36,593 bases of DNA, taken from contig JAFXVN010000023.1 of the NCBI GenBank assembly GCA_017524545.1, positions 1 to 36,593 of the forward strand, read 5' to 3'. Of this stretch, positions 5,833 to 33,922 are shown one piece after another; the first letter of the stretch is position 1; each line of letters begins with the position of its first letter. Source of the stretch: Bacteroidaceae bacterium. GTDB taxonomy: Bacteria; Bacteroidota; Bacteroidia; Bacteroidales; Bacteroidaceae. The translations under genes were made by a program, and so were the position numbers. The notes beneath the pieces are model-generated. The model was not told where the DNA came from. It ran no database searches and saw nothing but the letters and a program-made list of their open reading frames with translations.

Positions 5833-7191
5833 GAAGGTGTGGTCGTTGTCAATGAGGGCAAATGCTACCAAGCGAATGTCGTTGTTGAGGATGGCAGGAT
5901 AAAGACCCTCTCTAACTCTCCCTTAAAGGGCGAGAAGCAATCGCTCGACGAAGTCAACTCCCTCCCTTTAAGTGAGGGTTGGGGTGGGTCTTTTTTATTG
6001 CCCGGCATCATCGACGGCCATGTCCACATGCGCGAGCCGGGGCTGACCCACAAGGCAACGATGGAGAGCGAAACGCGCGCGGCTGCCCGTGGCGGTGTGA
6101 CGACGGTGCTCGACATGCCTAACGTCGTGCCGCAGACCACCACCCTCCAGCTTCTTCAGGAACGCTATGACCTTGCCGAGCACCAATGCCATGTGAACTA
6201 TGGTTTCTATCTTGGTGCCACGAACGATAATTTAGAGGAAATCAAGCGGCTCGACACGACATTCTGCCCTGGCGTGAAGCTCTTCATGGGCAGCAGTACG
6301 GGGAATATGCTCGTTGACAGAGAGGAAGCGCTTCGCGGCATTTTCAGGGAATCGCCTGCGCTCATTATGGCGCATTGCGAAGACACGGCACGCATCAATA
6401 GCCTCACCCAATCCCTCTCCAAAGGAGAGGGCATCTTCCGCGACTTGGCTCCCTCTCTTTTGGAGAGAGATGGGGTGAGGCTTCACCCTCTCATCCGCGA
6501 CCATGAGGCTTGCTATCGGAGCACAGAGCTTGCCGTCCGTCTGGCTAAGGAAACAGGTGCGCGGCTGCATGTGGCGCACATCACGACGGCACAGGAGCTG
6601 GACTTTTTCCATCCCGACGATGACCAAATCACGGCAGAGGCTTGTGTGCCGCATCTGCTCTTCACGGATGACGACTACGAGACGCTGGGCGCGCGCATCA
6701 AGTGCAACCCTGCCATCAAGACAAAGGCAGACAGGGACGCAATCCGTAAGGCTCTGACCGACGGCCGCATCCGCACCATTGCCACCGACCACGCGCCGCA
6801 TCTGCTTAGCGAAAAGGAGGGGGGCTTGAAGGCCATGAGCGGAATGCCTATGGTGCAGTTCTCCCTGCCAGCGGTGCTCTCGCTCGTCGATGAGGGCGTG
6901 CTCAGCATCGAGCGTGCCGTAGAGCTGATGTGCCACAACCCAGCCCGCCTCTACCATATCAAGGAGCGCGGCTTCATCCGTGAAGGCTACCATGCAGACC
7001 TCGTCTTGGTGCGCAGAAAACCCTGGACGGTAACGAAAGACTGCATCGAGAGTCGTTGCGGCTGGAGTCCCTTGGAGGGACGCACGTTGGGCTGGCAGGT
7101 GGAGAAGACTTGGGTGAACGGCCAGCTTGTCTGGGACGGCCAGCACGTCAATACTGAAGTCTTGGGGCAAGCGGTTACTTTTAGTTCATAG
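5773..7191 (+). CDS. pyrC: Dihydroorotase (class I type)
   Basis: Catalyses ring closure of N-carbamoyl-aspartate to dihydroorotate in pyrimidine synthesis (cytoplasm). Visible hallmarks: HVH metal ligands in GIIDGHVHMREPGLTHK; the probable carboxylated lysine in GVKLFMGSSTGNM; the metal His motifs MAHCED and HVAHIT; and the catalytic-Asp motif TDHAPH. Allantoinase is the nearest alternative but the REPG/STGNM wording favours dihydroorotase. Two palindromic repeat elements are translated in frame, near residues 44-74 (between the N-terminal strand region and the HVH motif) and near 211-236 (before HPLIRDHEAC); both fall in probable surface loops. The start is uncertain: there is no ATG, only TTG at 5773, GTG at 5800 or TTG at 5806, all within a simple repeat. 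Confidence 0.85.
   Translation: MDNCELEEIVKLSNREIVKLEGVVVVNEGKCYQANVVVEDGRIKTLSNSPLKGEKQSLDEVNSLPLSEGWGGSFLLPGIIDGHVHMREPGLTHKATMESETRAAARGGVTTVLDMPNVVPQTTTLQLLQERYDLAEHQCHVNYGFYLGATNDNLEEIKRLDTTFCPGVKLFMGSSTGNMLVDREEALRGIFRESPALIMAHCEDTARINSLTQSLSKGEGIFRDLAPSLLERDGVRLHPLIRDHEACYRSTELAVRLAKETGARLHVAHITTAQELDFFHPDDDQITAEACVPHLLFTDDDYETLGARIKCNPAIKTKADRDAIRKALTDGRIRTIATDHAPHLLSEKEGGLKAMSGMPMVQFSLPAVLSLVDEGVLSIERAVELMCHNPARLYHIKERGFIREGYHADLVLVRRKPWTVTKDCIESRCGWSPLEGRTLGWQVEKTWVNGQLVWDGQHVNTEVLGQAVTFSS
5902..5993 (+). repeat. Intragenic palindromic element, copy 1 (in pyrC)
   Basis: Outer inverted ends AAGACCC/GGGTCTT enclose two hairpins (CTCCCTTAAAGGG and CCCTTTAAGTGAGGG). Translated in frame it gives KTLSNSPLKGEK at its start, identical to the copy at 18308. 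Confidence 0.85.
6402..6480 (+). repeat. Intragenic palindromic element, copy 2 (in pyrC)
   Basis: Outer ends CCTCACCC and GGGGTGAGG are inverted; inner hairpins are CCCTCTCCAAAGGAGAGGG and CTCTCTTTTGGAGAGAG. It is read through as SLTQSLSKGEG...LLERDGVR. This is a diverged variant of the same architecture. Confidence 0.8.
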
Positions 7192-7230
7192 TCCAGAATT
7201 AAACCTTTTTGCGCCTATGTTGTCTATTAA

Positions 7231-7261
7231 GTAGTCAAATCAAAAATCGTAAATAGTAAAT
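7231..7261 (+). repeat. Simple repeat (AAATCGTAAATAGTAAAT type)
   Basis: Short A+T-rich tandem units directly before the start codon of the barrel gene. The same family recurs at 33140-33186, also directly before a start codon. Confidence 0.6.
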
Positions 7262-10200
7262 GAATCGGCTCTTCTTCATCTTTTCGCTTTTTTCTCTTTT
7301 CACCTTTTCACCTTTTACTACGGCTGTAGCACAGAAAGTGACACTTAGCGGTGTTGTTATGGACGGCGCAATGAACGAGCCTCTTCCCGGAGCGGCTGTC
7401 GTATTGCTCCAGCCTAAGGACAGCTCACTGGTCGCAGGTGTCTCTTCCGATGTCGAGGGCAAGTTCAAGCTTCCTTCCCTCAAGGCGGGCAACTACATCT
7501 TCCGCATCAGCTACATTGGCTTCCAGACACATACCCGCAACCTGAGCCTAACGAAGAAGACCAAGGATGTCAACTTGGGCACCATCACCCTGCAAGAGAA
7601 CAGCAAGCTGCTGAAGGAGGCAGAGGTGACGGCCAGGCTTGCACAGGTGGAGATGAAGGCCGACACATTCGTCTATAATGCCGAGGCGTACCGTATGCCC
7701 GAAGGCTCTATGCTGGAAGAGCTTGTCAAGAAGCTCCCCGGTGCGGAGATTGACGACGAGGGCAACATCAAAATCAACGGCAAGAGCGTCTCAAAGATTA
7801 TGGTCGATGGCAAGGAGTACTTCCAGAACGACACGAAGATGGCGATGAAGAACCTGCCATCGAAGCTCATCAAAAAGCTCAAAGCCTACGACAAGAAGAG
7901 CGACTACACGCGCATCACCGGCATCGACGACGGCGAGGAAGAAACCGTCCTCGACCTTTCTGTCAAGAAGGGCATGAAGGAAGGCTGGGTTGGCAACTTC
8001 GACGGTGCCTACGGTACGGAGGACCGCTATTCGGGCAAGGTCAATGTGAACCGTTTCCTCGACCACAGCTATCTGTCCGTCATTGGCAGCCGCAACAACG
8101 TGAACGACTTCAGCGGCCGATGGGGTGGGGGAGGCAACGGCATCACCACCAGCACGATGGGCGGCGTGACCTTTGCCTGGGAGAACGGCAAGCCCGACTA
8201 TTCCGCTGGCCTTCTGAAGCTGGGCGGCAACGTGCGCTACAACAGCAGTGACAGCGAATCGGAGTCGCGCACCAATAGCGAGATGTTCCTGCCATCGGGT
8301 GCAAGCCAGTTCTCGAATTCCAAGAACCAAGGCACCAGCTGGAACCAGAACGTCAACGCTAACTTCCAGATAGAGTGGTTCCCCGACAGTATGACCAACA
8401 TCATGTTCCGTCCGAACTTCAGCCACTCGAATGGCGACAGCTTCTCCGACAGCCGTAGCGTCACCTTCAACGAAAGCCCCTTCGAAAACGGCCTGACCGA
8501 CCCCGTGGAAGAGTATAAGACGATGGACGACTCCAAGGGCATACGGGTGAACGGTAATGAGCGTGTCAATAGCGGCAACAATTATAATAACAACGTAAAT
8601 GGAAGGTTCCAGATAAACCGTCGCCTCGTCGTTCCCGGGCGCAATCTCACCTTTAACCTCGACGGTTCCTATAGCGAAAGCAATAGCGAGTCCTATAGTC
8701 GCTCGATGATTACTTACTATCAGCGCAGAGACATCAATGCCGACTACCAGAACACAATGTCGCCCTCCAAGAACTACAGCGTTCAAGGCCGTGTCAGCTA
8801 CACCGAACCCATCCTGAAAGGGACGGTTGTACAGTTGAGCTATCAGGCGCAATACCGCTTCCAGGACAATAAACGCAAGATAGATATCTATGAAGAATTG
8901 GAAGATTCTTTGAGGAAATACCTTCCTTATGATTATAATTATGTGACGGCAACGAATCTGTTTGACGGCACTTACAGAGGCAGGTACTTTACTGATTATG
9001 GTGTTGACCTTACGGATTTGATAGAGGATAAGGAGAACAGCCAGTATGCCAAGTACAAGGAGTTCAACCAGAACGTCAACCTTATGCTGCGCTACAACAA
9101 CAAGATGGAGAACGGGCAGGAACTCTTCTTCAATCTTGGTGTCAACTGGCAGCCGCAACGAACAGAGATGGACTACAGGAAGCGGGATGTTGACACTTCT
9201 GTCGTTCGCCACATCCAGAACTGGGCTCCGCGCTTCAACATGCGTTGGAAGATATCCAATACCAGCCAGCTGCGTGTCCGCTACTTCGGCAGCATGTCGC
9301 AACCCTCGATGACCAACCTCATTGAGGTCATGGACAACAGCAACCCCCTCTATATCTCTACGGGTAATGCAGGACTGAAGAGCTCGTGGAACGACCGCTT
9401 CAACCTCGACTACAACGACTACATCACCGAGAAGCAGATGGGCTGGAACTTCAACGGCTGGGCTAACATCAACCGCCGCTCCATTTCGAACGCCACCATC
9501 TACGACACCAGGTCGGGCATCAGCTACAGCCGCCCCATGAACATCAACGGCAACTGGAATGCCGGTGCCTGGATGGGCTTCAACACAGCCCTCGACAAGG
9601 GGAAGCACATCAACCTCAATTGGAACCAGAACATCAACCATTCCAACAGCGTCGGCTACATCAGCAGCGAACTACAGACCCCCTCTGGCTCCTCCTTGGG
9701 GGAGGAATCCAGTTCGCAAGTCTCCCCTTTAAGGGGAGATATAGAGGGGTCTTTGTCTGACCTCTTCAACTACATGGAGCAGAACGGTCTGCTCAAGAAA
9801 TCCACCACCCGCAGCACCAACCTCGGTGAAAACCTCCGCATCAACTACCGCAACGACCTGATTGAGGTTGGCGTCAACGGCGGCATGAACTATCAGCACG
9901 CCCGCAACGACATGCAGGAGAAAGGCAACCGCGACACATGGTTCTTCAACTATGGCGGTAACGTGGTTATCAATTTGCCTTGGAACATGCAGTTCAGCAG
10001 CGACATCTCGCAGCAAAGCCGTCGCGGTTACGACGATGCCTCGATGAACACCAACGAGCTTATCTGGAACGCACAAATCAGCCAGAACTTCCTTAAGCAG
10101 AAGAATGCGACGTTGAGCATTCAGTGGTACGACATCCTGCGCCAGCGTTCCAGCATCAGCCGTAACTACAGCGCCACGAACCGCAGCGACACTTGGACCA

Positions 10201-10376: not shown

Positions 10377-10514
10377 TACCCAATCCCCTATTCAGATACT
10401 CATCATCAATCTCAAGGATTTCTCGTCCACGAGTTGCTTTAGATTGTCGCCAGTTCGTGAGAGTGATGGTGCGCTTTCGCTTATCTTCCAGTTTTTTCCA
10501 AAAACAAGGCTGTG

Positions 10515-10854: not shown

Positions 10855-10941
10855 AGATTATTTTGCTATTCCGTCTGAAAATATAAACAAAATTATCGAA
10901 TTACAAACCAGTAGAGACAAAATAAAAAGAAAAATGATTTG

Positions 10942-10972: not shown

Positions 10973-10978
10973 TTTTCT

Positions 10979-11875
10979 TTATTCACTTTTCACTTTTGAA
11001 GTTCCGCAGTTTGTCGTGCGGAACTCTATGGGTGTGATGCCTTGGAAGTGGCGGAACATTTTGTTGAAGTAGGAGGCGGAGTCGAAGCCGAGGCGATAGG
11101 AGATTTCCTTGCACGATAGGTTGGTGCTGAGCAGATAGTCCTTGGCACGCTCCATCTTTAGCCTGAGGAAATACTGTGCAGGCGCAAAGCCCGTATAGTC
11201 TCGGAACACCTTTCGGAATTTGGAGTAGCTCATGCCCGAATGAGTCGCAATGTCTTCCATCCGAAGATTGCTATGCAGATTCTGCCTCATGTGTTTCATC
11301 GCAAGGTTGATGCCGTTGGCATCCGGACTGTCCATGTATGGGAGCTGCTTGCTCCGTGCATAGACGGTACTGGCAATAAGCGCAATGTAGCCCGCCAACT
11401 GCTGCTGGTAGGCAGGCAACTGGTCCTGAGCTATCTGGCTGGCTTTCTCGAAGGCGACGGACAGAGAGTCGGACAAGCCGACGTGGTGGATGGGGTGAGA
11501 ACGGTCGGGCAGAAACTTCTCCAGCAGCAGGTCGGCGAAAGGCCCTGTGAAGCCAATCCAAGCCTCCGACCACCCCGTCTCCTTGTCGGGAGCGTAGTTG
11601 TGCCATTCCCCCGGATAGAGCACGATGGCGTCGCCTGCCCGAAGGGAAGTCCGAGGCTGATGGGCAGAGACAAACCAGCCGCTTCCTCTCGTGATGTAGA
11701 TGATTTGTGCTTCACGCAGCACACGGCCTTTGCTCACGAAGAAGAGGTAGTCGTCGGGGTGCTCACCGATGGGGTAGTTGCTACCCGCAGGAACATCCTG
11801 CTGTCCCACAGTTCGCGTAATGATGCCCCACTCATAGTCCGACTTTTGAGGAAGCAAGTATTTGACAGATGCCAT
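10979..11875 (-). CDS. AraC-family transcription regulator of the rhamnosidase locus
   Basis: 298 residues from the ATG at 11875; an in-frame TTG at 11884 is less likely. The N-terminal half is a cupin-like sugar-binding domain (IIYITRGSGWFVSAHQP...DAIVLYPGEWHNY). The C-terminal ~100 residues hold two helix-turn-helix motifs (MEDIATHSGMSYSKFRKVFRDYTG and CKEISYRLGFDSASYFNKMFRHFQGITP). It is divergent from the GH78 gene with 172 bp between the starts, the usual arrangement for a local activator, so it probably senses rhamnose or a rhamnoside (inference). The last residues, SKVKSE, are written by a GTGAAAAGT-type repeat ending at the stop, suggesting the original C-terminus was replaced or extended. 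Confidence 0.85.
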   Translation of the reverse strand: MASVKYLLPQKSDYEWGIITRTVGQQDVPAGSNYPIGEHPDDYLFFVSKGRVLREAQIIYITRGSGWFVSAHQPRTSLRAGDAIVLYPGEWHNYAPDKETGWSEAWIGFTGPFADLLLEKFLPDRSHPIHHVGLSDSLSVAFEKASQIAQDQLPAYQQQLAGYIALIASTVYARSKQLPYMDSPDANGINLAMKHMRQNLHSNLRMEDIATHSGMSYSKFRKVFRDYTGFAPAQYFLRLKMERAKDYLLSTNLSCKEISYRLGFDSASYFNKMFRHFQGITPIEFRTTNCGTSKVKSE

Positions 11876-16178: not shown

Positions 16179-19100
16179 AAGGACAAGCCTCTTCCTCCCT
16201 CAAAGGTGGCAAAGGGGGTCGTTTTAAGCGCGTGGCCCTCTTGCTTTGCTGCTTGTGGTGCATGAGCTGCCAGACCTGGAGCGAGGAGTCACCTCTGCTC
16301 GAGACGAGGGAGTTTGCCAAGCCCTCAATGTCTTGGCGACCCATACCCCTATGGTTCTGGAACAATACGCAGATTTCGGCATCGCCACTCGTTCAGCAGA
16401 TAGGGCAGATGGTCGAGACCGATGGCTATGGCGGCTGCGCTATCCTTCCTTTCGGAGGAGCCTTCCGTCCCGAATATCTCTCCGAGGAATATTTCACCCT
16501 CTACGGCAAAGCCGTCAGCAAAGCCCGTTCCCTCGGAGCCCACATGTCCATCTACGACGAGTACGGCTTTCCCAGCGGCAGCATGGGCGCCATCAACGGG
16601 TCGGGCGTGACGACCTTTATGAACAACCACCCCGACCATACCGTCAAACGTCTCGACAAGACGGAGTACCGCGTCTCCAGCGGTGCTACATTCAATCGCC
16701 AGATAACCCTTCAGGGCAAGCTCATGTCGATAGTGGCCTACAACCTGAACACCAAAGAGGTTGTCCCGCTGCGCGACTATTATGACGAGGCAACCGGTCA
16801 GGTGACCTGGACAGCTCCCAAGCAATCCGGTTGGCGTGTAATGGTTTGCCAATGCGTCAAGGACGGCGACCCGAATGTCGATTACCTCTCTCCCGAGGCA
16901 GTCAGCCTGTTCATTCAGGACACCCACGAAGCTTACTACCAGCACTTTGCCGACGACTTCGGGAAGACCATCGTCTCCACCTTCTTCGACGAGCCCACGA
17001 TGTACAGAGCACAGGGACGCATGTGGACGGGCGACTTCAACGAGAAGTTCGAACAACGTTACGGCTTCTCACCCGATGCACTCTATCCTGCTCTTTGGTA
17101 CGACATTGGCGAGAAGACGGCATGGGCCAGAAACCTGCTCTTCGGTCTGCACTCCACGCTCTACAGCGAAGGCTTTATGAAGACCATCTGCGACTGGGCA
17201 ACGGCGCACGGCATCCTTGCCACTGGCCATCAAGACCAGGAGGAGATAGTCAACCCTACCAGTGTGGCGGGCGACTTGATGCTCGTCGGGAAGCACCTCA
17301 CCATGCCTGGCATCGACAAGATAGGGAATGGCCGCAATACCGAGGACTTCTACAAGGTTGTCTCCTCATCGGCCAACAACTGGGACAAGACCTACGTCAT
17401 GTCCGAGACGTTTGGCGCTATGGGAAACATTGCGGTGGAAAAGCTCTACGAGGTAGCGATTGAGCAATATACGAAGGGCATCAACCACCTCATCCCCCAT
17501 GCCGTTTGGTACAACGACGGCGACGTGACCTTCCTGCCCGAACTCTCGTGGCGCAACCCGCTCTACAAGGCAGAGCTGCCTCGCTTCAATGCCTTCCTTT
17601 CCCGCCTGAACTACATCTTGGCCCGCGAGGGAAGACATGTGGCAGACGTGGCGGTGCTCTATCCCATTCAGACGCTATATGCCGGGCACAGGCTCGACGG
17701 GCCAAAGGGTTACTACGAAGGTGGCGTCGATGTGGAGGGTACGGATTATCCGCAGATTTCGCACTACTTGACCGACGACCTCGGCATTGACTTCACCTAT
17801 CTGCATCCAGAGGTGCTCGACGACCGCTGCAGCGCATCCGACGGCAAGCTCAATATGAACAATGATGTCAACCATGAGCACTTCTCTGTCATCCTGCTTC
17901 CTGGCGTGAAGGTCATCTCGCTGAGTAACCTGAAGAAGATTGAGCAGGCATGGGAGCAGGGCGTGAAGGTCATCTTCACGACTCAGTACCCTCAGCAGTC
18001 TGCCGACGGTAGCGAGGGCGACGAGGAAGTGAAGAGCATCGTCGCACGGATGCTTGCTTCGGAAGAGAACAAGGCTTATTTCCTCTCCGTTCCCTCTGCC
18101 GAGACCTTGGGCGAGGTGATGGATGAATGCCTTCCCCAAAGGGATGTCGTCTTTTCGGACGCTTCCCATCCCTTCAACTATATACATAAGGTGATAGACG
18201 GGAAGGATGTCTGGTTCTTCGGCAACATCGATGCCACGTCTGCTACGAATACGATAACAGTTAAGACTACAGCCTCGAAGCTCACGTTGCTCAATCCGCA
18301 TACGGGCAAGACCCTCTCTAACTCCCCCTTAAAGGGGGAGAAAGCAGGCGAGCTTTCCGCGAAGGAAGTCTCCCCTTTAAGGGGAGATTTAGAGGGGTCT
18401 TCTTCTTCTTCTTTTAGTCTTACCCTGCATCCCAACCAGTCAGTCTTCCTCGTCGATGACGCTTTGCTGCTGAAGAATGGTTCGTCTATTGACCCATCGG
18501 ACGAGAAGCTTTCTTATACCATAGAGATGATGGCAGAGGTGGAGCAGCTCTCGGCTGGCATCTGCTTCTCCATAACCGGCCAGCAGGACTACTACATGTG
18601 GCAGTTCAATGCCTCTGACCCTCAGCATCCCCGCTTGCGTCCCCATCGCTGGCTGGGTGGCAATGCATCCCTGCTGGGCGAAGTGGATTTGCCCGCAGAG
18701 GCCAGCATTCAGGTGGGCCGTCCCTTCAAGGTGAGACTCGAGATAGAGGATGAGGCTTACGTCAAGACCTACATCGACGATGTCCTGGTAGATGAGCGCG
18801 GCGGCAGTTTCGCCTTTGGCAAGATAGGGTTCCGTCAAGCTCACGACGATGCCTACGGCAAGACTGAGATAGCTTGGTTCGACGATGTGAGCATTCGCGT
18901 GAAGAGCGGCAGCGGTCCGGGCGATGTGGTCTTCTCCGAGGACTTCTCCGCTTCCAATCCCTTCTCCGACGGCAGCATCATATCGGGCAGGCTGAAGGTG
19001 ACGGGGCAGATGTCGCACGACATCCTGGCTTGGCTTCGTGAAGTGCCGGACGGCCTCGGTGAAGTGAAAAGCGAAAAGTCTAAAGTGAAAGATGATGAGA

Positions 19101-21987: not shown

Positions 21988-22001
21988 CGAGCTTACAAAT
22001 T

Positions 22002-22085
22002 ATTTTCAAGGCTTGATAATTTATTTTCAAACCATGAAAATATATTTTCAAAGCTTGATAATATATTTTCACGCCTTGAAAATAA
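22002..22085 (+). repeat. 21-bp tandem repeat, four copies
   Basis: Four head-to-tail units start at 22002, 22023, 22044 and 22065, each beginning ATTTTCA and most containing CTTGATAAT or CTTGAAAAT. Because 21 is divisible by 3, the stretch also reads as a 7-residue repeat (LFSRLDN, IFSKLDN) in a frame open into the DUF4062 gene. A promoter box lies downstream at 22285, so it is more likely non-coding. Confidence 0.8.
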
Positions 22086-22284
22086 TTATATAACGAGCCT
22101 AAAAGACTTTTATGCCGCGTTATGGGGAGGTTTATATCGTGTTCTTCGAGAGTTTGTTCCCTGTTGGAGAGCGTTTTACTTTGGTTTGTGTTGTTGCGAA
22201 GCTTGCTCGTGCAGGCCAGGCGAGGCTTTTCTCTTGGAAATAGATGTTTTTTGTAAAAACACGATTATTCTCGCTATTTATTCG

Positions 22285-25262: not shown

Positions 25263-25817
25263 TTATTTCCGCTCTATCAATTTGACAGGGCCGAGGAGTC
25301 CATAGGGTAGAAGCTCGGCTTTGTCCGAAGGGCCGTTGATGACCCAGGTCTTGCGCTCTTCCCGAGGCAGGCGGGCATCATAGACAAGGCGGTTGTGCCA
25401 GGTGCTGGTGACTTGCACGATGAGGCTGTTGCGCCCCTTCTTGGCGTAGCGCGTGATGTCGGTCTCGTAAGGCTCTGCCCAAAGGGTGTCGGCAACGTGC
25501 CCGTTCACGCTGACCACGGCAATCTCCTCCACCTTACCCAGATTCAGGAGCAGTCTGTCCTTTGGCTTGTGGTCGAGCTGGAAGGTGGTCTCGTAGGTGG
25601 CGGTGCCGGAGAAAGCCTTGCCCTCGTCGCTTAGAGGAAGGTCTTTCCAAGGCTTCAACCCATTGAGGGCAAGGGGTGCCTCGATGCCCCAGCCCTGCGG
25701 GAAGGTAAGAGTAAAGAGTGCTCCGCCTGCGCCTGACCGGAGGGAAGAAGAGTGAAAAGTGAAAAGTGAAAAATCAGGGTTACTTTCATTCTCCAAGTGG
25801 TTACTATTATTCTTCAC
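25263..25817 (-). pseudogene. C-terminal beta-sandwich of the split GH106 rhamnosidase
   Basis: This is the same reading frame as the gene ending at 25827, separated by a single TAA (25829-25827) and four codons. Residues ~35-184 form the sugar-binding-like domain expected at the end of GH106 enzymes (ATYETTFQLDHK...LLLNLGKVEEIAVVSVNGH...WHNRLVYDARLP). The apparent start is a GTG within the GTGAAAAGT repeat. There is no signal peptide and no promoter that I can see, so on its own it is probably not exported. It would be made only by readthrough or reinitiation. Confidence 0.75.
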
Positions 25818-25846
25818 TTTTAACTTTTAACTTTTCACTTTATCGT
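25748..25846. repeat. Inverted pair of GTGAAAAGT-type repeats splitting GH106
   Basis: Plus strand 25748-25773 carries GTGAAAAGTGAAAAGTG; 25811-25846 carries the opposite orientation (CTTTTAACTTTTAACTTTTCAC). The two arms can pair as a long A/T-rich hairpin with about 37 bp between them. Read on the minus strand, the first arm contains the TAA that stops the GH106 frame. Confidence 0.8.
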
Positions 25847-28550
25847 GATGAAACACGACAAACACCATTTCTCCACGACAGAGGTTGAGGTCGAGGCTGG
25901 CATACTCGCCGTCCTGACGTGTAGCGACGGGGGTGATGCTGCCGTTCATGGGGTTCCACAGCTCGGCGCGTCCCGTCTGGCGGAACAGGACGGTGCCGCA
26001 GAAAGCCTCTTCTTGCTTCGGGCAGACCATGTACCAGTCCGCTCCCTCGTCTTGGCGGTGGAGCCAAGAGCCTACCCCCGACCCCTCCCAAGAGGAGGGG
26101 AGTTCCGCCTGCGCCTGAGCTTTGGGGAGAAATTTCACGTCGGGCTTCAGGCCTAATTCCTTTATGGTAGCCTCCAGATTCCCTTCCCTTTGGGAGGAGT
26201 TAGGGGTAGGCTCCAACACAAGATGTCCGCCTTGTGCCACAAGCTGGCGGAGGCGTTCCTGCGTCTCGGGCAGGAACCGTCCGCGCTTGGGAATCCACAG
26301 CAGGTCGTAGCTGATGCCTTCGGGAGTCACCCATTTGCCGTCGCGCACGCTGATGCGATGGAGCAAGGCGTCGGTGTTGCAGTAGTCGTACTTGTAGCCC
26401 TCGGGGAACGGGGTGTACTGGTCGGGCTTCTGCTCCGTCTCGTCGCCCAAGTACCAGAGAACGCTGCTCACGGGTCGTCCGCGCTCGAGCATGAAAGCAC
26501 AGCGGGCAAGATAGGTGTTGAAGTGCCGCATGTAGGGCCACCAGGTCTGCGACCTCAGGAAAGGCGTGCCGATACCGCTGCCGAAGGACGTTCCGGGGAA
26601 GTAGCGGTCGGGGTCGGGATTATGCGTATAGGTGTGGAAGACGGTATGCGTGACGCCCTCGACCATGTTCTGGTTGGCGACCTCGCGCAGCATGGATAGG
26701 TGTTCGTCCCAAGTCAGGACGAAGGATGTGAACGACTCGGCGCTGACCCTCGGCTTGCCATACATGCGTGCTGCCGAAGCCGTCGGGCGGATGGGCTTGT
26801 AGTTGTGGTTGGCGAGGAAGTTGCTGAAGGGCTGCCAGTACTCGGCCATCGGCACGTCGGCATACTTGTAGTACTCCATCGGGTCGGCAGGGAAGATGTC
26901 GCCAGCCGCCGTCTCGTAGCTTGCCGTCATTCCCTTCTCATGCGCCAGGCGGGTCATGTGTCCGTAGAAGTTCTGGGTGAAGAGTTCATGGATGGTGCGC
27001 CGCCAGTCGGCAAGGAACTGGCTGGTCTGCTCGCGGTCGTCCAAGACCCACCCGAAGACGGCAGGCAGCCAGGTGGTGAGGTCGTAGTGGCGGCGCGACA
27101 GGAACTCTTCTCTCATGTGTCGCGTCCAAGTCTGCGAGGCACATTCCCAACTGTCCATCAGCATGTTGTCGAGCAAGCCCTTCAGCGGGCCGTCTGCCAG
27201 ACGGCCTATGTAGCTGTTGAACTGGTAGGTGACGAAGGCCGTGTCGAGCTTGTTGACTTCCCATCCCGTCGCCTCTTTTGGTGCAGGCCCGTTCTTCCTG
27301 CCAGTGTTGACGTGCCCAATGCGGAGGACAGTCCATTGCCCTTGCGGAGCTTCCCAGTGCAGCTGGCCGTCGGCATCCATCTTGTCCGAGATGTCGAAGA
27401 TGTCGGCGCGATGGATAAAGCCTCCCCCGTCCCCTCCCAAGGAGGGGGGAATGGCGGGGAGGCAGGATGATACACCCCTCCTTTGGAGGGGATGGGGGAG
27501 GCTTTGTCGCGATGTCCATCCTGCCTCCATCTCCCAGTTATGGCCACGGGCAGCAGACAGGAAGCGCATGTAGCGGATGTGCATGTTGTGCAGATTGGTG
27601 ATTTCCACATGATAAGTCGTGGAGGATTTGCCCATGAGGGCAAACGTCATGCTCTTCTCCGAGTCCTGCCAGTTGCCGGCGGGGAAGTCCGAGTCTAATA
27701 CCACTTGGTCGTCGGCAAGGATGCGGACGTGTATGTCTGGCTGGACGCAGAAGTCGTGGTTGAAGTTGTCGATGGGGTTGAACTCCACTGAGCGAGCCTC
27801 CTCGTCGCCTTTAATTTTCAGGCTGAAACGGTAGGGCTTGCCGGGCTGTGTGGCAGGCATCACGAAGTCCTTCCCCTCCTTCAGCAGTCGTTCCCATTCC
27901 TGCTGGTGGTCGTCGGCTCTCACCTCTTCCACCTCCAAGTAGCGGTTGGTGTCGCCCAAGGGCGTAGGGAAAGCCAGCACATAGACATCCCGCCAGTCGC
28001 GCCATTCCTCCTTGGCATCTATGGGCAGAGAAATGTCCACCTCCCCGCCTCCCTGCACGTCTGTCCGCGTATAGGCAAGGTGCCGCATGGCCTGTTCGGG
28101 CTTAATCCACGGCCCGCCGCTCATGGCCCAGCCGGGACAAGTCTGCAGGCTGAACCGCATCCCTAACCGGTGTGCCTCGGTAGCTGTGTGGCGCACCAAA
28201 TCCTCCCATTTGGGTGTCAGGCACTCGATAGGCTCTTCCGTGCCAGGCCAAACGTCGTCGCTCATGCGTCCGTGGAAGAGCTGGATGCCCTGAATACCCG
28301 ATTGGGCTATGGCTTCCACGTCGCGCGTGATACCTTCGCGGCTCACGTTTCCGTTGACGAAGTGGAACCACGTCTCGGGGTAGAAGATGCGGTCCGGGTT
28401 ACGGAACATCTTCTCGTCGGCTTTGTTGAAAGGATGGTGCAGCAGCGCGCTGTCGGGTACGGCAGGGAACTTCTTGGGTTCGTCGGCAGCCCAGGCAAGC
28501 CGGGGAAGGGTCAGCCCAGCCAAAAGAAACAGGAACAAAAATCTTCTCAT
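25827..28550 (-). CDS. Alpha-L-rhamnosidase, GH106, catalytic part ended by an in-frame stop
   Basis: 907 residues from MRRFLFLFLLAGLTLPRLAWA (signal peptide). An upstream in-frame start at 28601 is rejected because a -7 box lies between the two. GH106 enzymes remove alpha-L-rhamnose, for example from rhamnogalacturonan side chains. Family features: ETWFHFVNGNVS near the start, FSLQTCPGWAMSGGPWI, MLMDSWECASQTWT with a likely catalytic or Ca-linked Glu, ASYETAAGDIFPADP, and RVSAESFTSF. It ends in HHDKVKS at a TAA created inside a GTGAAAAGT repeat. The missing C-terminal domain continues in frame at 25263-25817. Two palindromic elements are translated within it (26069-26212; 27418-27505). It may be a damaged gene or a shortened but active enzyme. 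Confidence 0.85.
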   Translation of the reverse strand: MRRFLFLFLLAGLTLPRLAWAADEPKKFPAVPDSALLHHPFNKADEKMFRNPDRIFYPETWFHFVNGNVSREGITRDVEAIAQSGIQGIQLFHGRMSDDVWPGTEEPIECLTPKWEDLVRHTATEAHRLGMRFSLQTCPGWAMSGGPWIKPEQAMRHLAYTRTDVQGGGEVDISLPIDAKEEWRDWRDVYVLAFPTPLGDTNRYLEVEEVRADDHQQEWERLLKEGKDFVMPATQPGKPYRFSLKIKGDEEARSVEFNPIDNFNHDFCVQPDIHVRILADDQVVLDSDFPAGNWQDSEKSMTFALMGKSSTTYHVEITNLHNMHIRYMRFLSAARGHNWEMEAGWTSRQSLPHPLQRRGVSSCLPAIPPSLGGDGGGFIHRADIFDISDKMDADGQLHWEAPQGQWTVLRIGHVNTGRKNGPAPKEATGWEVNKLDTAFVTYQFNSYIGRLADGPLKGLLDNMLMDSWECASQTWTRHMREEFLSRRHYDLTTWLPAVFGWVLDDREQTSQFLADWRRTIHELFTQNFYGHMTRLAHEKGMTASYETAAGDIFPADPMEYYKYADVPMAEYWQPFSNFLANHNYKPIRPTASAARMYGKPRVSAESFTSFVLTWDEHLSMLREVANQNMVEGVTHTVFHTYTHNPDPDRYFPGTSFGSGIGTPFLRSQTWWPYMRHFNTYLARCAFMLERGRPVSSVLWYLGDETEQKPDQYTPFPEGYKYDYCNTDALLHRISVRDGKWVTPEGISYDLLWIPKRGRFLPETQERLRQLVAQGGHLVLEPTPNSSQREGNLEATIKELGLKPDVKFLPKAQAQAELPSSWEGSGVGSWLHRQDEGADWYMVCPKQEEAFCGTVLFRQTGRAELWNPMNGSITPVATRQDGEYASLDLNLCRGEMVFVVFHHDKVKS
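26069..26212 (-). repeat. Intragenic palindromic element, copy 6 (composite)
   Basis: Outer ends AGCCTACCCCCGA and TAGGGGTAGGCT are inverted. The two hairpin halves (CCCCTCCCAAGAGGAGGGG; TCCCTTCCCTTTGGGAGGA) are about 75 bp apart, with apparently native codons (LEATIKELGLKPD) between. Encodes TPNSSQREGN and ELPSSWEGSGVGSW. Confidence 0.7.
27418..27505 (-). repeat. Intragenic palindromic element, copy 7 (in GH106)
   Basis: Outer ends AAAGCCTCCCCC and GGGGGAGGCTTT are exact inverses. Inner hairpins are CCCCTCCCAAGGAGGGG and CCCCTCCTTTGGAGGGG. Translated in frame as SLPHPLQRRGVSS...IPPSLGGDGGGF. Confidence 0.85.
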
Positions 28551-28588
28551 AGGTTTTATAAAGATGTATGCACACGTGAGTATCGGTA

Positions 28589-28596
28589 CAAAGATA
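28589..28596 (-). promoter_or_regulatory. -7 box of the GH106 gene
   Basis: Minus strand TATCTTTG, 38 bp before the ATG at 28550. It lies after the longer possible start at 28601, so the shorter protein is preferred. Confidence 0.55.
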
Positions 28597-28760
28597 CACA
28601 TTATTTATATTATTATGATGATGCCTGGCAGTTTTTAGCATAAAAAAAAGGCATTTCTTTTGCTTTTGTCCTGCGGAAATCGTATATTTTCGGAGCCATA
28701 CATGAAAAACAATGAATACTTTACCTTAATTTATATTATTAACCTTAACACATTTGTACT

Positions 28761-29354
28761 ATGAAAAGAAGATTTCTTCCGATGCTTCTGCTTGCAGTCC
28801 TTGGGCTTGCGGGGGGAGCGAGTGCGAACGCACAGACGCAGATTGCCACAGCTGACGACTTCGTGGCCTTCGCAGCAGCTGTGAACGGCGGTCAGACAGA
28901 CCTTGATGCCCAGCTGACAGCCGACATCGTGCTGACCGACAATACAATGGTCGGCACAAGCTCCAATAAGTATGCTGGCACCTTCGACGGCAAGGGACAT
29001 TCCATTACCTATAACTATACGGTCGGCTTCGACTATGGCGGTCTCTTCAGCTATACAGACGGTGCCACCATCAAGAACCTGCGCGTAGAAGGCACGGCTG
29101 TGGTGACGAAGATTCACTTCGGTGCGCTCATCGGTCATGCCGAAGGCACAGTACTCGTTGAGAATGTCATTACAAATGTAGATATTACAGGTACTTCCGG
29201 CACAGGTGTTCAGGGCGACGGCGGTATGCTGGGTGCCAACTATGCGGACAACATCACCTTCAACAATTGCGCTACGCTCGGCAAGATGGGTCACGAGGGT
29301 TTTGACACATCCCCTTGTCTTTGTCTGTTTATAAGAACCGCTTGGCGATGGTGA
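28761..29354 (+). pseudogene. Truncated GLUG-like gene, paralog of the gene at 543
   Basis: A signal peptide (ending SANAQ) and about 155 residues of one GLUG-like module closely follow the modules of the large gene at 543: ATADDFVAF, GTFDGKGHSITYNY, GGLFSYTDGATIKNLRVEG, GALIGHAEGTVLVENVITNV and NNCATLGKMGHEG. Identity stops at about 29299, where the relatives continue SSMYSPFSG. Here FDTSPCLCLFIRTAWRW follows, to a stop at 29354. The last 26 bp overlap the 3' end of the opposite PLD gene, so the tail is read from unrelated DNA. A 3' deletion removed the rest. Expression of a short exported fragment is possible. Confidence 0.75.
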
Positions 29355-30555
29355 AGATGCGGGAGCGGATGCGGCGGCGCAGGGGGAAGCGTTCCTTGAA
29401 GACTTCGGGGGTGAGCAGGGTGCTGTGCTTCTCGATGTCTTCGGTATAGATTTGTTGCAGCTCCTGCGTTGTGGCGCGGTCGAAGATGAAGGCGTTCACT
29501 TCGTAGTCGAAGCAGAGGGAACGCGCATCAAGGTTTGTGGTGCCAACGGTGCAGAAGAGGCTGTCCACCATCATCACCTTGCTGTGGTGGAACCCGTCGT
29601 TGTAGTAATAGACCTCCGCACCGCGCTTCATAAGCTTGCGCATCTCCAGCCCTACGACATCGTCGTTCACCATGCCGTCGCTCTTGGTGGAGACCATGAA
29701 CTGCACCCTGACGCCACGCTCCAGTGCCCTGCGCAATGCCGCCCTTACCTCTCCGAAGAGACCTGCATAGGGGTTGACAATCTGCACCAGATGCTCGGCA
29801 TTGTCGATGGCGATGCGGTAAGTCTGTCGCATGATGCGCGGCGACTCCTTGGGCCAGCGGGAAGCGAAAGCAATAGAAGACCCTTCCAAACCTCCCCTTA
29901 AAGGGGAGGCTTTATGTTTCTCCCCCTTTAAAGGGGAGTTAGAGAGGGTCTTCCAGAACAGCTCCTCGTATGCCTCTACGATGGGGCCTTCCATACGGAT
30001 GTGCATGTCGCGCCACTTGCCCACCTTCGGTTTGCCGTGCAGGTAGTAGTCCGCCACGTTCATGCCGCCAGTATAAACCACCTTGCCATCGATGACGGCT
30101 ATCTTATGGTGGTCGCGGTGCATGAGATGGTTTATCCACGGGAAGCGCACAGGGTCGAAGCCTACAATCTGTATGCCCGACTCGCGGATGCGTGCCTGCA
30201 GAGTGTCGGAGAGCGGCAGGTCGCTGCTTTTGTTGCCGAAGCTGTCGAAGATGATGCGTACGTCCACACCTTCGCGAGCCTTGCGCTGCAGCTTCTCCAA
30301 GAGCACGCCGCAGATGCTGTCCTGCTGGAACTTGAAGTAGTCCATCAGAATGTATTTCTCGGCTCGCTCCACAGCCTCGAAGAGGTCGCGGAACTTGATT
30401 TCCCCCGTGGGGAGGATGGTCACACGGTTGCCTTCATAAAGCGTCAGCCCTATCCGCACGAAGTCGCGTTTGGTGCGCTCGGCAGAGTTATCGCCCATAG
30501 CAAACAGGCAGCAGAACAAGGCGAGGACAAAAAGAGAATGGCACTTGCAGTACAT
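29329..30555 (-). CDS. Phospholipase D family / cardiolipin synthase-like protein
   Basis: A 408-residue protein with an N-terminal hydrophobic segment (signal or anchor, residues ~6-20). Two HKD motifs are complete: HHKIAVID with GG following (near 147-160) and HSKVMMVD with GTTNLDARS (near 320-340). Proteins with this pair condense phosphatidyl groups, as in cardiolipin synthesis, or hydrolyse phosphodiesters. Cardiolipin synthase is the likelier role from the ILMDYFKF and DMHIRMEGP contexts. Between the two halves, near residues 201-226, a palindromic element is translated (KTLSNSPLKGEK then SPLRGGLEGSS), probably lengthening a surface loop. It is convergent with and overlaps the truncated GLUG gene. 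Confidence 0.8.
   Translation of the reverse strand: MYCKCHSLFVLALFCCLFAMGDNSAERTKRDFVRIGLTLYEGNRVTILPTGEIKFRDLFEAVERAEKYILMDYFKFQQDSICGVLLEKLQRKAREGVDVRIIFDSFGNKSSDLPLSDTLQARIRESGIQIVGFDPVRFPWINHLMHRDHHKIAVIDGKVVYTGGMNVADYYLHGKPKVGKWRDMHIRMEGPIVEAYEELFWKTLSNSPLKGEKHKASPLRGGLEGSSIAFASRWPKESPRIMRQTYRIAIDNAEHLVQIVNPYAGLFGEVRAALRRALERGVRVQFMVSTKSDGMVNDDVVGLEMRKLMKRGAEVYYYNDGFHHSKVMMVDSLFCTVGTTNLDARSLCFDYEVNAFIFDRATTQELQQIYTEDIEKHSTLLTPEVFKERFPLRRRIRSRIFTIAKRFL
29877..29952 (-). repeat. Intragenic palindromic element, copy 8 (in PLD gene)
   Basis: Outer ends AGACCCTTCC and AGAGAGGGTCTT; inner hairpins CTCCCCTTAAAGGGGAG and CTCCCCCTTTAAAGGGGAG. It is read on the minus strand with the same KTLSNSPLKGEK start as copies 1 and 5. 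Confidence 0.9.
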
Positions 30556-30574
30556 TGGCGTATGCTTTTCGGTG

Positions 30575-30582
30575 CAAAGTTA
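30575..30582 (-). promoter_or_regulatory. -7 box of the PLD gene
   Basis: Minus strand TAACTTTG, 19 bp before the ATG at 30555. Confidence 0.5.
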
Positions 30583-30636
30583 AGACTTTTCCCGAATATT
30601 TTTCTACTTTCAACTCCCAACTTTCAACTTTTTTCG

Positions 30637-30644
30637 TACTTTTG
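30637..30644 (+). promoter_or_regulatory. -7 box of the MaoC gene
   Basis: TACTTTTG fits TAnnTTTG and is 47 bp before the ATG. It lies just after a CTTTCAACTTT repeat (about 30607-30632). Confidence 0.5.
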
Positions 30645-30660
30645 CACAAGAAATCGTTAA

Positions 30661-30691
30661 AATGTAAATTGTCAAATTGTGAAATTGTCAG
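30661..30691 (+). repeat. Simple repeat (AAATTGTCAAATTGTG type) before MaoC
   Basis: Same family as 5749-5832, ending directly at the ATG of the MaoC gene. Confidence 0.65.
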
Positions 30692-31159
30692 ATGAGTAAA
30701 GTAGTTATCAATTCCTATGAGGACTTCCAGCAGTATGTGGGACAGGAACTGGGCGTAAGTGATTATGTGGAGCTAAGCCAGGAGCGCATCAACATGTTTG
30801 CCGATGCAACGCTCGACCATCAGTGGATTCATGTCGATACCGAGAAGGCGAAGCAGGAAAGCCCCTTCGGTCAGACCATCGCACACGGCTACCTGACCCT
30901 GAGCATGTTGCCCCATTTGTGGAATCAGATTATCGAGGTCAACAACCTGGAGCGCATGATGAACTACGGCATGGACCGCATGAAGTTCGCCATGCCTGTC
31001 CTGAGCGGTCAGCACATCCGCATGAAGACCAAGCTGGAGGAACTTGCCAATCTGCGCGGTGCCATCAAAACCACCATCAAGTTCACCATCGAGATTCAGG
31101 AGACAGGAAAGAAAGCCCTCGAGGGACTGGCAACATTCATCTACTACTTCAAAAGTTGA
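30692..31159 (+). CDS. MaoC-like (R)-enoyl-CoA hydratase
   Basis: A 155-residue single hot-dog-fold protein. The hydratase motif FADATLDHQWIHVD contains the catalytic pair Asp42 and His47, followed by PFGQTIAHGYLTLSM, as in MaoC/PhaJ hydratases that add water to trans-2-enoyl-CoA. The length is normal for the one-domain type. The 3' end overlaps the convergent gene at 31149 by 11 bp. The pathway (fatty acid or polyester metabolism) is not shown by its neighbours. Confidence 0.88.
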   Translation: MSKVVINSYEDFQQYVGQELGVSDYVELSQERINMFADATLDHQWIHVDTEKAKQESPFGQTIAHGYLTLSMLPHLWNQIIEVNNLERMMNYGMDRMKFAMPVLSGQHIRMKTKLEELANLRGAIKTTIKFTIEIQETGKKALEGLATFIYYFKS

Positions 31160-31502: not shown

Positions 31503-31534
31503 TTTAGTTCAAGCCCAAACGATGCTTCATTCTG

Positions 31535-31566
31535 CAAATTTACACATTTATATGCAAAGATGCAAA
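31535..31566 (-). promoter_or_regulatory. Promoter of the small conserved gene
   Basis: Minus strand TTTG (complement of 31563-31566), 20 bp, TAAATTTG (complement of 31535-31542). Fits the Bacteroidetes promoter, 33 bp before the ATG at 31502. Confidence 0.6.
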
Positions 31567-31660
31567 GAAATAGGCAATAAATAATAGACAATAAACAGTA
31601 AAAATGCCTTTAGCTTCCATATTATTATATATTATGCATTGTGTATTACCTGTTTTTTTG

Positions 31661-31668
31661 TAACTTTG
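31661..31668 (+). promoter_or_regulatory. -7 box of the BACON lipoprotein gene
   Basis: TAACTTTG, 23 bp before the ATG at 31692. Confidence 0.6.
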
Positions 31669-31691
31669 CCCATAGAATAGAAGAATAATGT

Positions 31692-32408: not shown

Positions 32409-32414
32409 AGCGCT

Positions 32415-33098
32415 ATGCAGTACGAACTCTTCAGCGATACAGACTTCCAGCAGGAGACACCCTTCACAGGCCGCTCTGTCTGTCTGCTTGGCAGTTTCCG
32501 CACCGCATCAAAGTCTTTGCAGAAAAAGCTTCAGGCTCTTGGTGCCGACGTGAAGCAGGGACTGAGCCGCACTCTCCATTATGCAGTGCTGGGCAGCGAT
32601 GTGCCTGCCGATGCCCTCGACCACTTGCAGCAGCTGGCTTATCATGGCTATCAGCCCAGGATTCTGAGCGAGAGAGATCTCGACGACATCTTCCAAGGGC
32701 ATTACGCTCCCTATAAAGTGCCTGCGCAAATCAGTAAGGATTTGCATTTGACGCTTCGGCATTATCTCGGTTCGCAGTTCCGCTATGACGGGAGCCTGAA
32801 CCCGCTCTACATGGAAGAGCTTTATCTGGCTCCAGACACCGAGGCTCCTCAGGCGGACCTTTACCAGATGCTCGGCAACCGGGGTGTCTATGCCAATGCC
32901 TATATAGACGACACCACAGATGTCCTTGTCATCAGCGACCGCTCCTTGCAGCACTTGCGGGATGGCCAGACAGACGAGAGCCTTCGCTACATAGAGCAGC
33001 AGTACAACCAAAGCCGTGCCCAGACCTTCCGCTTCCGCATGACGAGCGAAGGCGAACTGCTGGCGTGGCTAAAAGCCTCCCCTAACAGCCTCCCCTAA
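32415..33098 (+). CDS. BRCT-like domain protein with repeat-derived C-terminus
   Basis: 227 residues, cytoplasmic. Residues ~17-90 follow the BRCT pattern found in DNA ligase and PolIII-epsilon relatives (GRSVCLLGSFRTASKSLQKK...LGADVKQGLSRTLHYAVLGS...DLDDIF). A second, weaker BRCT-like unit is at ~150-222 (TDVLVISDRSLQHL). A DNA-repair or DNA-binding role is inferred. The last seven codons, ASPNSLP, are written by the left half of a palindromic element that also supplies the stop codon, so the protein may have lost or exchanged its original end. It is paired with the BACON lipoprotein gene, an odd operon partner. Confidence 0.6.
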   Translation: MQYELFSDTDFQQETPFTGRSVCLLGSFRTASKSLQKKLQALGADVKQGLSRTLHYAVLGSDVPADALDHLQQLAYHGYQPRILSERDLDDIFQGHYAPYKVPAQISKDLHLTLRHYLGSQFRYDGSLNPLYMEELYLAPDTEAPQADLYQMLGNRGVYANAYIDDTTDVLVISDRSLQHLRDGQTDESLRYIEQQYNQSRAQTFRFRMTSEGELLAWLKASPNSLP

Positions 33099-33120
33099 CC
33101 CCTCCAAAGGAGGGGGAAAC
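33071..33120 (+). repeat. Partial palindromic element, copy 9 (gene end)
   Basis: AAAAGCCTCCCCTAAC, then a second CCTCCCCTAACCCCTCC and CCTCCAAAGGAGGGG hairpin. Only the left half is present. It provides the end of the BRCT-like gene. Confidence 0.7.
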
Positions 33121-33139
33121 AAAGGGTAAGTGGTAAAAT

Positions 33140-33186
33140 AGCAAATGAATAGTAAATCGTAAATAGTCAAATAGTAAATAAAATAG
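33140..33186 (+). repeat. Simple repeat (AATAGTAAATCGTAAATAGTC type)
   Basis: Tandem A+T-rich units as at 7231-7261, ending next to the GTG start of the DUF554 gene. Confidence 0.65.
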
Positions 33187-33187
33187 G

Positions 33188-33922
33188 GTGTTAGGAACAA
33201 TAGTCAATACCTGCACTATCATCATAGGCAGTGCGTTTGGAGCCATGGTGCGCTCTGGCATTGGAGAGAAGTACAAGAAGGTGCTGTTCGACGGGCTTGG
33301 GCTTTGCTGCATCGTGCTCGGAGTGAATGCATCGCTGCCCAATATGGCTAAGAGCGAGTACCCTGTCCTCTTCATCCTGAGCCTCGCTATCGGAGGACTT
33401 ATCGGCACGAAGCTCGACCTCGCAGGTAGGCTCAACAAGCTCACAGACCCACCCCGACCCTCCCTTAAAGGGAGGGAGCTCTCCCCCTTTAAGGGGGAGT
33501 TGGAGGGGGTCTTTACTGGCTGCCTTCTCTATTGCATCGGCACCTTCTCGATTGTCGGCCCAGTACTTTCGGCTCTTTCCCCTACGGGAGGCATGGCTTT
33601 CAATGAGCCGGCGAACACCTATTTATACACCAATGCCACACTCGACCTCGTCACCTCGGCCGTACTTGCCGCCTCGTATGGCAGGATAATGCTTCTTGCC
33701 GCTCCCGTCCTTTTCTGTTGGCAGGGCATGTTCTATGCCATAGGCTATTTTTGCGGCGACGGGATGCCAGAACCCATGCGCGTAGAGTTGAGCATAGTGG
33801 GTGGCGTACTCATCCTCAGCTCAGGGCTTAGCATACTTGGCATCAAGGATTGCAAGACCATCAACCTCCTGCCCAGCCTCCTCGTCCCCGTCGTGTTCTA
33901 TCTCATCAAGATGGCTTTTTGA
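33188..33922 (+). CDS. DUF554 family membrane protein
   Basis: 244 residues, GTG start (VLGTIVNTCTIIIGSAFG). DUF554/YdfK-type protein with about 6-7 hydrophobic helices; function unknown, possibly transport. Diagnostic wording includes LGTIVNTCTIIIGSAFGAMV, the FTGCLLYCIGTFSIVGP block and LDLVTSAVLAASYG. A palindromic element is translated at residues ~87-109 (DPPRPSLKGRELSPFKGELEGV), between the third hydrophobic segment and GCLLYCIG. In family members this loop is normally short, so the insertion lies in a polar loop. The element uses the same frame as the SPLRGDLEG copies. Confidence 0.85.
   Translation: MLGTIVNTCTIIIGSAFGAMVRSGIGEKYKKVLFDGLGLCCIVLGVNASLPNMAKSEYPVLFILSLAIGGLIGTKLDLAGRLNKLTDPPRPSLKGRELSPFKGELEGVFTGCLLYCIGTFSIVGPVLSALSPTGGMAFNEPANTYLYTNATLDLVTSAVLAASYGRIMLLAAPVLFCWQGMFYAIGYFCGDGMPEPMRVELSIVGGVLILSSGLSILGIKDCKTINLLPSLLVPVVFYLIKMAF
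33445..33513 (+). repeat. Intragenic palindromic element, copy 10 (in DUF554)
   Basis: Outer ends AGACCCACCCC and GGAGGGGGTCTTT; inner hairpins CCCTCCCTTAAAGGGAGGG and CTCCCCCTTTAAGGGGGAG. It is the shortest full copy. Confidence 0.9.

Follow-up and report, generated by a model that had tools for sequence, protein, structure and literature searches.

Contig JAFXVN010000023.1 of the Bacteroidaceae assembly GCA_017524545.1 (36,593 nucleotides, analysed over its full length and hereafter called the window) contains GC-rich palindromes that lie in frame within several unrelated protein genes, and the locus raises the question of what these elements are, how they reach genes and how the genes stay open around them. 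Most probably they are non-autonomous palindromes shaped like REPINs, the paired and inverted form of repetitive extragenic palindromic (REP) sequences; they come in two related designs, are dispersed and are kept in open frames of their hosts. The layout, the two families, the dispersal, the in-frame genic position, the absence from most orthologues examined and the patchy spread among species are all supported by the observations presented here.

A half of family A starts with AAGACCC, continues through a pyrimidine-rich stretch and then forms a hairpin around CTTAAAG; a half of family B follows the same plan with AAGCCTC at its head and CCAAAGG in its hairpin. Two inverted halves and a spacer make up the complete element, which is the REPIN layout. 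A preliminary description of the window had listed ten copies of a single family; nine were confirmed, in two families with subtypes, and the copy at 16188 was discarded, as neither the family A model (R1) nor the family B model (R2) matches it at E ≤ 1 and its fold (z +1.11) is no better than that of shuffled sequences. The nine places comprise seven pairs, one A half with a decayed partner and one B half:

5902-5992, plus strand: family A pair matched by R1, read as KTLSNSPLKGEKQSLDEVNSLPLSEGWGGSF, in frame in the dihydroorotase gene.
6399-6483, plus strand: family B pair matched by R2, read as NSLTQSLSKGEGIFRDLAPSLLERDGVRL, in frame at a second site of the dihydroorotase gene.
9675-9753, plus strand: family A element with a decayed left half, in frame in the gene of an outer-membrane beta-barrel protein.
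18308-18401, plus strand: family A pair supported by R1 and by its fold, read as KTLSNSPLKGEKAGELSAKEVSPLRGDLEGSS, in frame in a GH106-like gene.
26069-26212, minus strand: family B pair with a long spacer, matched by R2, in frame in a GH106 alpha-L-rhamnosidase gene.
27418-27504, minus strand: family B pair matched by R2, in frame in the same GH106 gene as the 26069 element.
29877-29952, minus strand: family A pair matched by R1, read as KTLSNSPLKGEKHKASPLRGGLEGSS, in frame in a cardiolipin-synthase-like gene.
33086-33118, plus strand: family B half matched by R2, overlapping the 3' end of a gene.
33444-33513, plus strand: family A pair matched by R1, read as TDPPRPSLKGRELSPFKGELEGVF, in frame in a DUF554 gene.

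Hosts examined further below:

5773-7191, plus strand: dihydroorotase gene with two elements.
25827-28601, minus strand: GH106 gene with two elements.
29329-30555, minus strand: gene of a cardiolipin-synthase-like phospholipase D (PLD) protein.

In the third element the half at 9718-9753 is sound, and its partner at 9675-9707 matches R1 only at E 0.9. Called genes contain, in frame, each of the seven pairs as well as the 9718 half, and the 33086 half overlaps a gene end. Hosts in the window are unrelated (dihydroorotase, an outer-membrane barrel, GH106 enzymes, a PLD/cardiolipin-synthase-like protein and DUF554). The single frame claimed for the copies applies only in part: family A gives KTLSNSPLKGE at 5902, 18308 and 29877, and DPPRPSLKGRE at 33444. 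Because most of the window halves went into building R1 and R2, their matches in the window arise by construction, and independent support comes from the matches of the same models elsewhere in the genome.

Across the genome (3.60 Mb in 85 contigs, 92% complete), these covariance models of the halves, applied to 150 of 976 candidates for A and 150 of 1418 for B, returned at least 153 A and at least 149 B matches at E ≤ 1, with best values of 1.4e-9 and 6.6e-8, respectively; the E-values are rough. A less biased sample of 836,593 bases, made up of the window and forty stretches of 20 kb, yielded 110 halves that assemble into 74 elements (36 pairs and 38 single halves). The window is denser, with nine elements in 36.6 kb against 65 in the remaining 800 kb of the sample; the sample density may be overstated, because its stretches, set at round coordinates, sit on contigs named in the match lists. 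With 54 further regions picked around listed matches or around genes resembling REP-associated tyrosine transposases (RAYTs), the collection reached 100 non-redundant pairs and 65 single halves. For 82 of the 100 pairs the best match counted as a full-length copy (at least the element length less 6 bases, gaps allowed). The closest such copies in the genome are 94% identical and about 580 bases apart, followed by a pair at 93%, and because the best full-length identity is only 94%, between near neighbours, the active spread proposed in the preliminary description is not shown. Elements also occur in twos within about 610 bases, at 51627/52205 on contig C58, 24229/24471 on C64, 9967/10573 on C79 and 57545/57848 on C51.

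Both families are patchily distributed across 61 congeners, the counts per genome being lower bounds (113, 116 or 45 candidates scored). Among 151 sampled genomes of the family, with 45 candidates scored in each, at least 13 had A matches at E ≤ 1e-4, two of them within the genus. The 5902 element, spacer included, has matches of 82-94% in genomes G091, G020, G120, G074, G131 and G035, the best being 94% over 93 bp in G091, and an 86% match on contig C69 of its own genome; in every case the dihydroorotase match lies on a different contig. Phages and plasmids searched with one A element as query gave no match, and an Rfam scan of the window at gathering thresholds detected only a tRNA.

Folded as single-stranded DNA, eight of the nine places in the window (the 33086 half not among them) gave z scores between -2.70 and -7.62; the weakest, 26067-26215, was equalled by 3 of 200 shuffles. 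Both the 57 A pairs and the 43 B pairs have outer ends that are sharply conserved beyond the first base, with heads of the form AAG[A/C]CC, and a test for the GTAG/CGTC tag at the REP end was negative. Pairs of two halves of the same subtype are scarce in family A (7 of 57, 17.7 expected) and show no such scarcity in family B (26 of 43, 26.9 expected). Where a genic pair is mixed, the A2 half mostly precedes its partner in the reading direction (29 of 37); this order and the A pairing bias were noticed post hoc.

Genes were called by a home-made frame-aware Markov caller that ignores element bases and was checked by one control. The 74 sampled elements were genic in 55 cases, intergenic in 15 and partial in 4 (29 of the 36 pairs were genic), in DNA that is 82% coding. 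With the window set aside, 47 of 65 were genic, which against a coding fraction of 0.82 (p 0.05) indicates that genes are not favoured beyond their share and, if anything, are slightly avoided. In the control, run under one slightly stricter rule, 51 of 74 A/B elements and 3798 of 5000 random 80-mers were genic. Eight other frequent types of repeat, with 105 places between them, were genic at 13, intergenic at 80 and partial at 12, and the caller is therefore not one that labels everything genic. The A and B elements are thus genic about as often as chance placement would make them, unlike the other repeats of this genome. In the larger collection, 82 pairs were genic, 11 partial and 7 intergenic, and the single halves were genic in 45 cases, intergenic in 14 and partial in 6.

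As an open frame within a called gene is partly circular evidence, we also assessed frame from the flanks alone, asking which frame codes best in the 150 bases to either side, without calling open reading frames. Sixty-three of the 100 pairs had both flanks on the same strand and in the same frame with no intervening stop; one was in frame with a stop, five were in another frame, 28 were undecided and three lay at edges. This supports the preliminary suggestion of a filter for translatable frames: among the 69 pairs that could be decided, 63 are in frame and free of stops (p ~1e-23 against one third). Flanks of 90 bases gave 39 in frame, two in another frame, one on opposite strands, 56 undecided and two at edges. 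The five pairs in another frame may mark gene borders. This in-frame excess is a matter of survivorship, and it reveals a filter, not an insertion preference. A consensus tuned for translatability, considered as a candidate explanation, was not supported: in each direction, between one and three of the three frames are open in the six typed half-consensuses.

Hosts elsewhere in the genome are ordinary, unrelated genes. From 70 hosts of 250-1000 residues, 20 were drawn at random, of which 18 lay outside the window and 17 of these had a Pfam match, among them an M24 peptidase, RsmF, a helicase, a queuosine synthesis protein, a C1 peptidase, threonine synthase, an ABC ATPase, an NAD-dependent DNA ligase and members of GH32, GH3 and GH84. 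The ligase, LigA, has two elements, one of family A at about the boundary between OB fold and zinc finger (linker 1) and one of family B between the zinc finger and the HHH domain (linker 2).

Comparison with orthologues at seven sites in four genes showed the element to be absent from most of those examined; at three of the loops some species carry other palindromes that are predicted to be translated. Of the orthologue loci, only 69 were scanned with R1 and R2. At dihydroorotase site 1 (5902), none of 80 orthologues (the best 80 of 241) has a peptide of the KTLSNSPLKGE type; congener L246 has a weak half by the B model (26.5 bits) and L260 and L264 carry other repeats. The nearest named records among these 80 are from uncultured Bacteroidaceae and Prevotellaceae, many of them ruminant. 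At site 2 (6399), most orthologues have a plain loop such as NANMAEVKKQYGEDPDVRFHP; L251 contains a B pair (44.5 and 23.8 bits), the B halves found in L245 and L252 are weak, and in L260 and L264-L266 there are repeats of the KSEELRVKSE/SSLFTLHSSL type. The 29 orthologues at GH106 site 27418 are mostly plain, with a shrunken palindrome in G079, whose protein is 91% identical to that of the window, and a B half of 37.6 bits in L348; at site 26069 a similar insert was found in G079 only, also among 29.

In the cardiolipin synthase loop, among 19 close relatives, A-model matches occur in L318, L319 and L328, B-model matches, mostly weak, in L315, L321, L323 and L330, and other repeats or nothing recognised in the rest, and ten distant orthologues, aligned and not model-scanned, have a plain loop. 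LigA linker 1 (29 orthologues aligned, 17 scanned) varies from species to species, and the B element of linker 2 is common to G027, with weak matches in L377 and L385. Strong hairpins (fold z < -3) were present in 9 of 20 cardiolipin synthase loops within the clade and 0 of 10 outside, in 4 of 18 and 0 of 12 at LigA linker 1, and in 4 of 29 at dihydroorotase site 2; by this cut-off many loops within the clade lack one, and the A pairs in L319 and L328 escape it too (z -1.9). Alongside these, the cardiolipin synthase loops of L325, L331, L332 and L333 and the dihydroorotase loop of L264-L266 hold AT-rich or GGGGCAAGG-type repeats that are predicted to be translated as well, with peptides such as VKRLKGEKVKRLKG, SSLFTLHSSL and PLPLAPCP.

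At the sites examined, the genic copies lie in variable loops or linkers, and their predicted contribution is roughly 16 to 57 residues. In the predicted structures the cardiolipin synthase insert falls in a segment modelled at low confidence (residues 207-223, predicted local distance difference test, pLDDT, below 50), the first dihydroorotase insert is partly of low predicted confidence (65-68, pLDDT below 50), and the second is modelled with helices (block means 81-91). We propose that frame-breaking insertions would be purged, that selection on the host protein would preserve the frame, that the remaining inserts would be made into peptide, and that copies may decay by in-frame deletion with loss of the native loop, as seen only at individual sites.

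Several results weigh against this reading. In the window the second dihydroorotase loop has 29 residues, against 19 in L247, the element alone measuring 85 bases, and the cardiolipin synthase loop has 30 residues in the window, 30 in ten outgroups (31 allowing for anchor placement) and 30-46 in close relatives. At both sites, then, host residues have gone too, at insertion or by later in-frame deletion, and neither site is a clean insertion. The GH106 element at 26069 is common to G079 and the second LigA element to G027, and they are therefore not recent. Purging of gene-breaking insertions predicts an intergenic excess, and none was seen. The surviving copies are, moreover, a biased sample. 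Finally, a cognate RAYT flanked by the same repeats would have been expected, and an A element was found within 700 bp at only one of the eight RAYT-like places of this genome (on contigs C17, C21, C32, C43, C54, C58, C60 and C63); among the 61 congeners a RAYT match was present in 4 of 8 A-rich and 32 of 53 other species (rho 0.24, p 0.07).

No excess of target duplication was detected: at zero offset and k = 3-8 the 57 A pairs gave a single 4-base match and the 43 B pairs gave no match, and at k = 2 there were 7 in A against 3.6 expected and 1 in B against 2.7. The conserved ends, the lack of a duplication excess and the recurrence of the 5902 element together with its spacer fit movement as a unit through single-strand transposition better than a DDE element and do not prove it. 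That a single-strand (Y1/HuH, RAYT-like) transposase moves the elements in trans is a step we propose tentatively, at rather less than even odds; a RAYT-type enzyme is the natural suspect, with family A not tied to one and family B weakly correlated.

The closest competing view, which we regard as possible and again as falling short of an even chance, is that these are classical REPINs moved by a RAYT (TnpA-REP) of this genome and tolerated in genes. It accounts for the paired, inverted REP-like halves and for the lack of a target duplication excess, and TnpA-REP subclasses 2.4 and 2.6 are described as common in Bacteroidetes (PMC6006769). The eight RAYT-like places, with HxH and YxxNP motifs identified by eye, have open frames mostly of 258-408 residues (192 on C17). 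Most of these frames are longer than the TnpA-REP of Escherichia coli. The one on C43 lies 440 bp from the best-scoring A half, with an A pair nearby, and a RAYT match is more frequent in B-rich species (9 of 10) than in the others (27 of 51; p 0.04), B matches and RAYT matches being correlated across the 61 congeners (rho 0.42, p 0.0008). The cut-offs for A-rich and B-rich, 16 and 15, were set after seeing the data, and the species test is blunted because per-genome counts are lower bounds.

Set against this, 14-mers of A and B are absent within 700 bp at seven of the eight RAYT-like places (at C21 only 86 upstream bases were available); other frequent 14-mers are found near the one on C58. 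Across 41 loci with a RAYT-like or Y1 match, which leave the further RAYT matches of many genomes outside, no strong A/B match was seen besides C43 (L185), the remainder being a 30.9-bit A half in L187 and matches under 24 bits in L193 and L196. The A-rich genomes G005 and G020 (the latter 62% complete) gave no RAYT or Y1 match, and the heads of the elements differ from GTAG/CGTC. A simple RAYT link, as judged from neighbourhood and species profile, was not supported for A and was weak for B; of the TnpA-REP partner suggested in the preliminary description, the gene family exists in the genome, and tests for a link between it and the repeats did not establish one.

The chief alternative to the transposase step is that palindromes recombine or undergo template switching with one another. 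In its full form, which we consider unlikely, there would be no dedicated transposase, and template switching, microhomology-mediated repair or gene conversion would seed and swap palindromes, the loops being merely where they survive. In its favour, a given loop is filled by different repeat types across species, those of the AT-rich and GGGGCAAGG kinds included, host residues are missing at dihydroorotase site 2 and in the cardiolipin synthase loop, the cardiolipin synthase element of the window adjoins a host AAG, and target duplications are not in excess. Against it, the outer ends are sharply conserved, and the occurrence of the 5902 element with its spacer on another contig of G091, at 94% over 93 bp, resembles the movement of a unit.

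Retention for function, with the inserts serving for instance as flexible linkers or as translation-pausing mRNA hairpins, appears highly unlikely. Strong hairpins do recur at the same loops, and the A2-first order and the scarcity of same-subtype A pairs (with no such bias in B) could be read as constraint; yet most orthologues examined do without the inserts, the sequence at one site varies between species, and the cardiolipin synthase insert is predicted at low confidence. Miniature inverted-repeat transposable elements (MITEs) of the DDE type, which are likewise short, multicopy and bounded by inverted ends, are extremely improbable given the lack of a target duplication excess, the search for parent insertion sequences having covered the Y1 families. 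Chance GC-rich loops, an assembly artefact or an ancestral motif, to which the GC-rich halves, the metagenome-type assemblies and the models run without a shuffled control might point, are scarcely credible beside genome-wide E-values down to 1.4e-9 (A) and 6.6e-8 (B), recurrence in many separate species assemblies and sites that are empty in most orthologues examined.

Returning to dispersed REPIN-shaped palindromes kept in open host frames, the nearest behavioural parallel is that named in the preliminary description, the Rickettsia palindromic elements (RPEs), and the comparison stands, given the unrelated hosts and the many orthologues without the element. RPEs are described as short palindromes in frame in conserved protein genes, 19 reading frames in the first report (PMC2229807; PMC6649704). 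As with RPEs, our palindromes lie in frame inside conserved protein genes, and most of the orthologues examined have no element (exceptions being the GH106 gene of G079 and LigA of G027); they differ in phylum, in their GC-rich two-hairpin halves and two families, in numbering 82 genic pairs in about a third of one genome and in the presence of different palindromes at one loop across species.

Architecture points to REPs and REPINs, with which the elements share two inverted hairpin halves, high copy number, no target duplication excess and a genome containing RAYT-like genes. In a 2013 survey of GTAG/CGTC REPs, most were intergenic, most of the intragenic cases came from O. terrae, whose hosts include DNA ligase and uvrA, and from R. 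conorii, and two Xanthomonas species had different REPs at about the same recB site (PMC3733652); TnpA-REP subclass 2.6 is reported to have atypical structures at its flanks, copies of which also occur at other places in the genome (PMC6006769). Unlike these REPs, A and B are mostly genic, their heads are not GTAG/CGTC and a RAYT link is not established. The Correia 107-bp, ERIC and YPAL repeats are also reported fused in frame to protein genes, with target duplications (PMC2229807); A and B resemble such MITEs with open frames in being small repeats fused in frame to genes, and differ in showing no target duplication excess. Translated inverted repeats within coding sequence occur too in Nematomorpha mitochondria, where both arms are reported to encode conserved gene residues (PMC6649704), unlike the variable loops that A and B occupy. 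The elements thus behave like RPEs and are built like REPINs, with membership in either group not established.

Other repeats were also noted. Simple-like repeats (AAATTGTCAAATCGTG, TTCACTTTTAACTTTT) lie in the window at 5787-5841, 10982-11013, 25813-25844, 30603-30704 and 33984-34015, and 14-mers of this type are among the most frequent in the sample and mostly intergenic. Of the control repeats, ACCATTTACCATTT had the largest genic share (7 places genic, 6 intergenic and 3 partial). An AT-rich inverted repeat with 45-base arms at 21998-22087 has a TATTTTCAAG core with relatives that are frequent in the sample, and 249-274 and 381-406 form a perfect 26-base inverted repeat. Another GC-rich palindrome family of the genome sample, GCACTCCCCCAAAGGGGGAGCGGGGAGGGGGCT, resembles the insert of L320. 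The large protein encoded at 543-4904 has internal repeats 975 bases apart and is related to the segment 29040-29299.

We found no description of coding palindromes of this kind in Bacteroidota in the open-licence PMC literature and, as far as that literature tells, what is new is their scale, the proportion that is genic and the diversity of palindromes that occupy the same core-enzyme loops. A broader idea, which we put forward as a conjecture short of an even chance, is that the loops are shared landing places for inverted-repeat DNA, where unrelated families (A, B, GC-rich, AT-rich) would enter and replace one another and the native loop in LigA, cardiolipin synthase and dihydroorotase, translated genic sites being a main niche. 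Coding copies in frame are otherwise known from Rickettsia and, less numerously, from REPs and MITEs of other bacteria. A gut-type Bacteroidota clade in which high-copy REPIN-shaped repeats are mostly genic and sit in core enzymes, with many species open to comparison, makes several matters testable: the route by which repeats get into genes, the enzyme responsible for moving them, the tolerance of proteins for random peptides and the turnover of loops. For annotators it is also a warning that loops in these proteins may derive from repeats.

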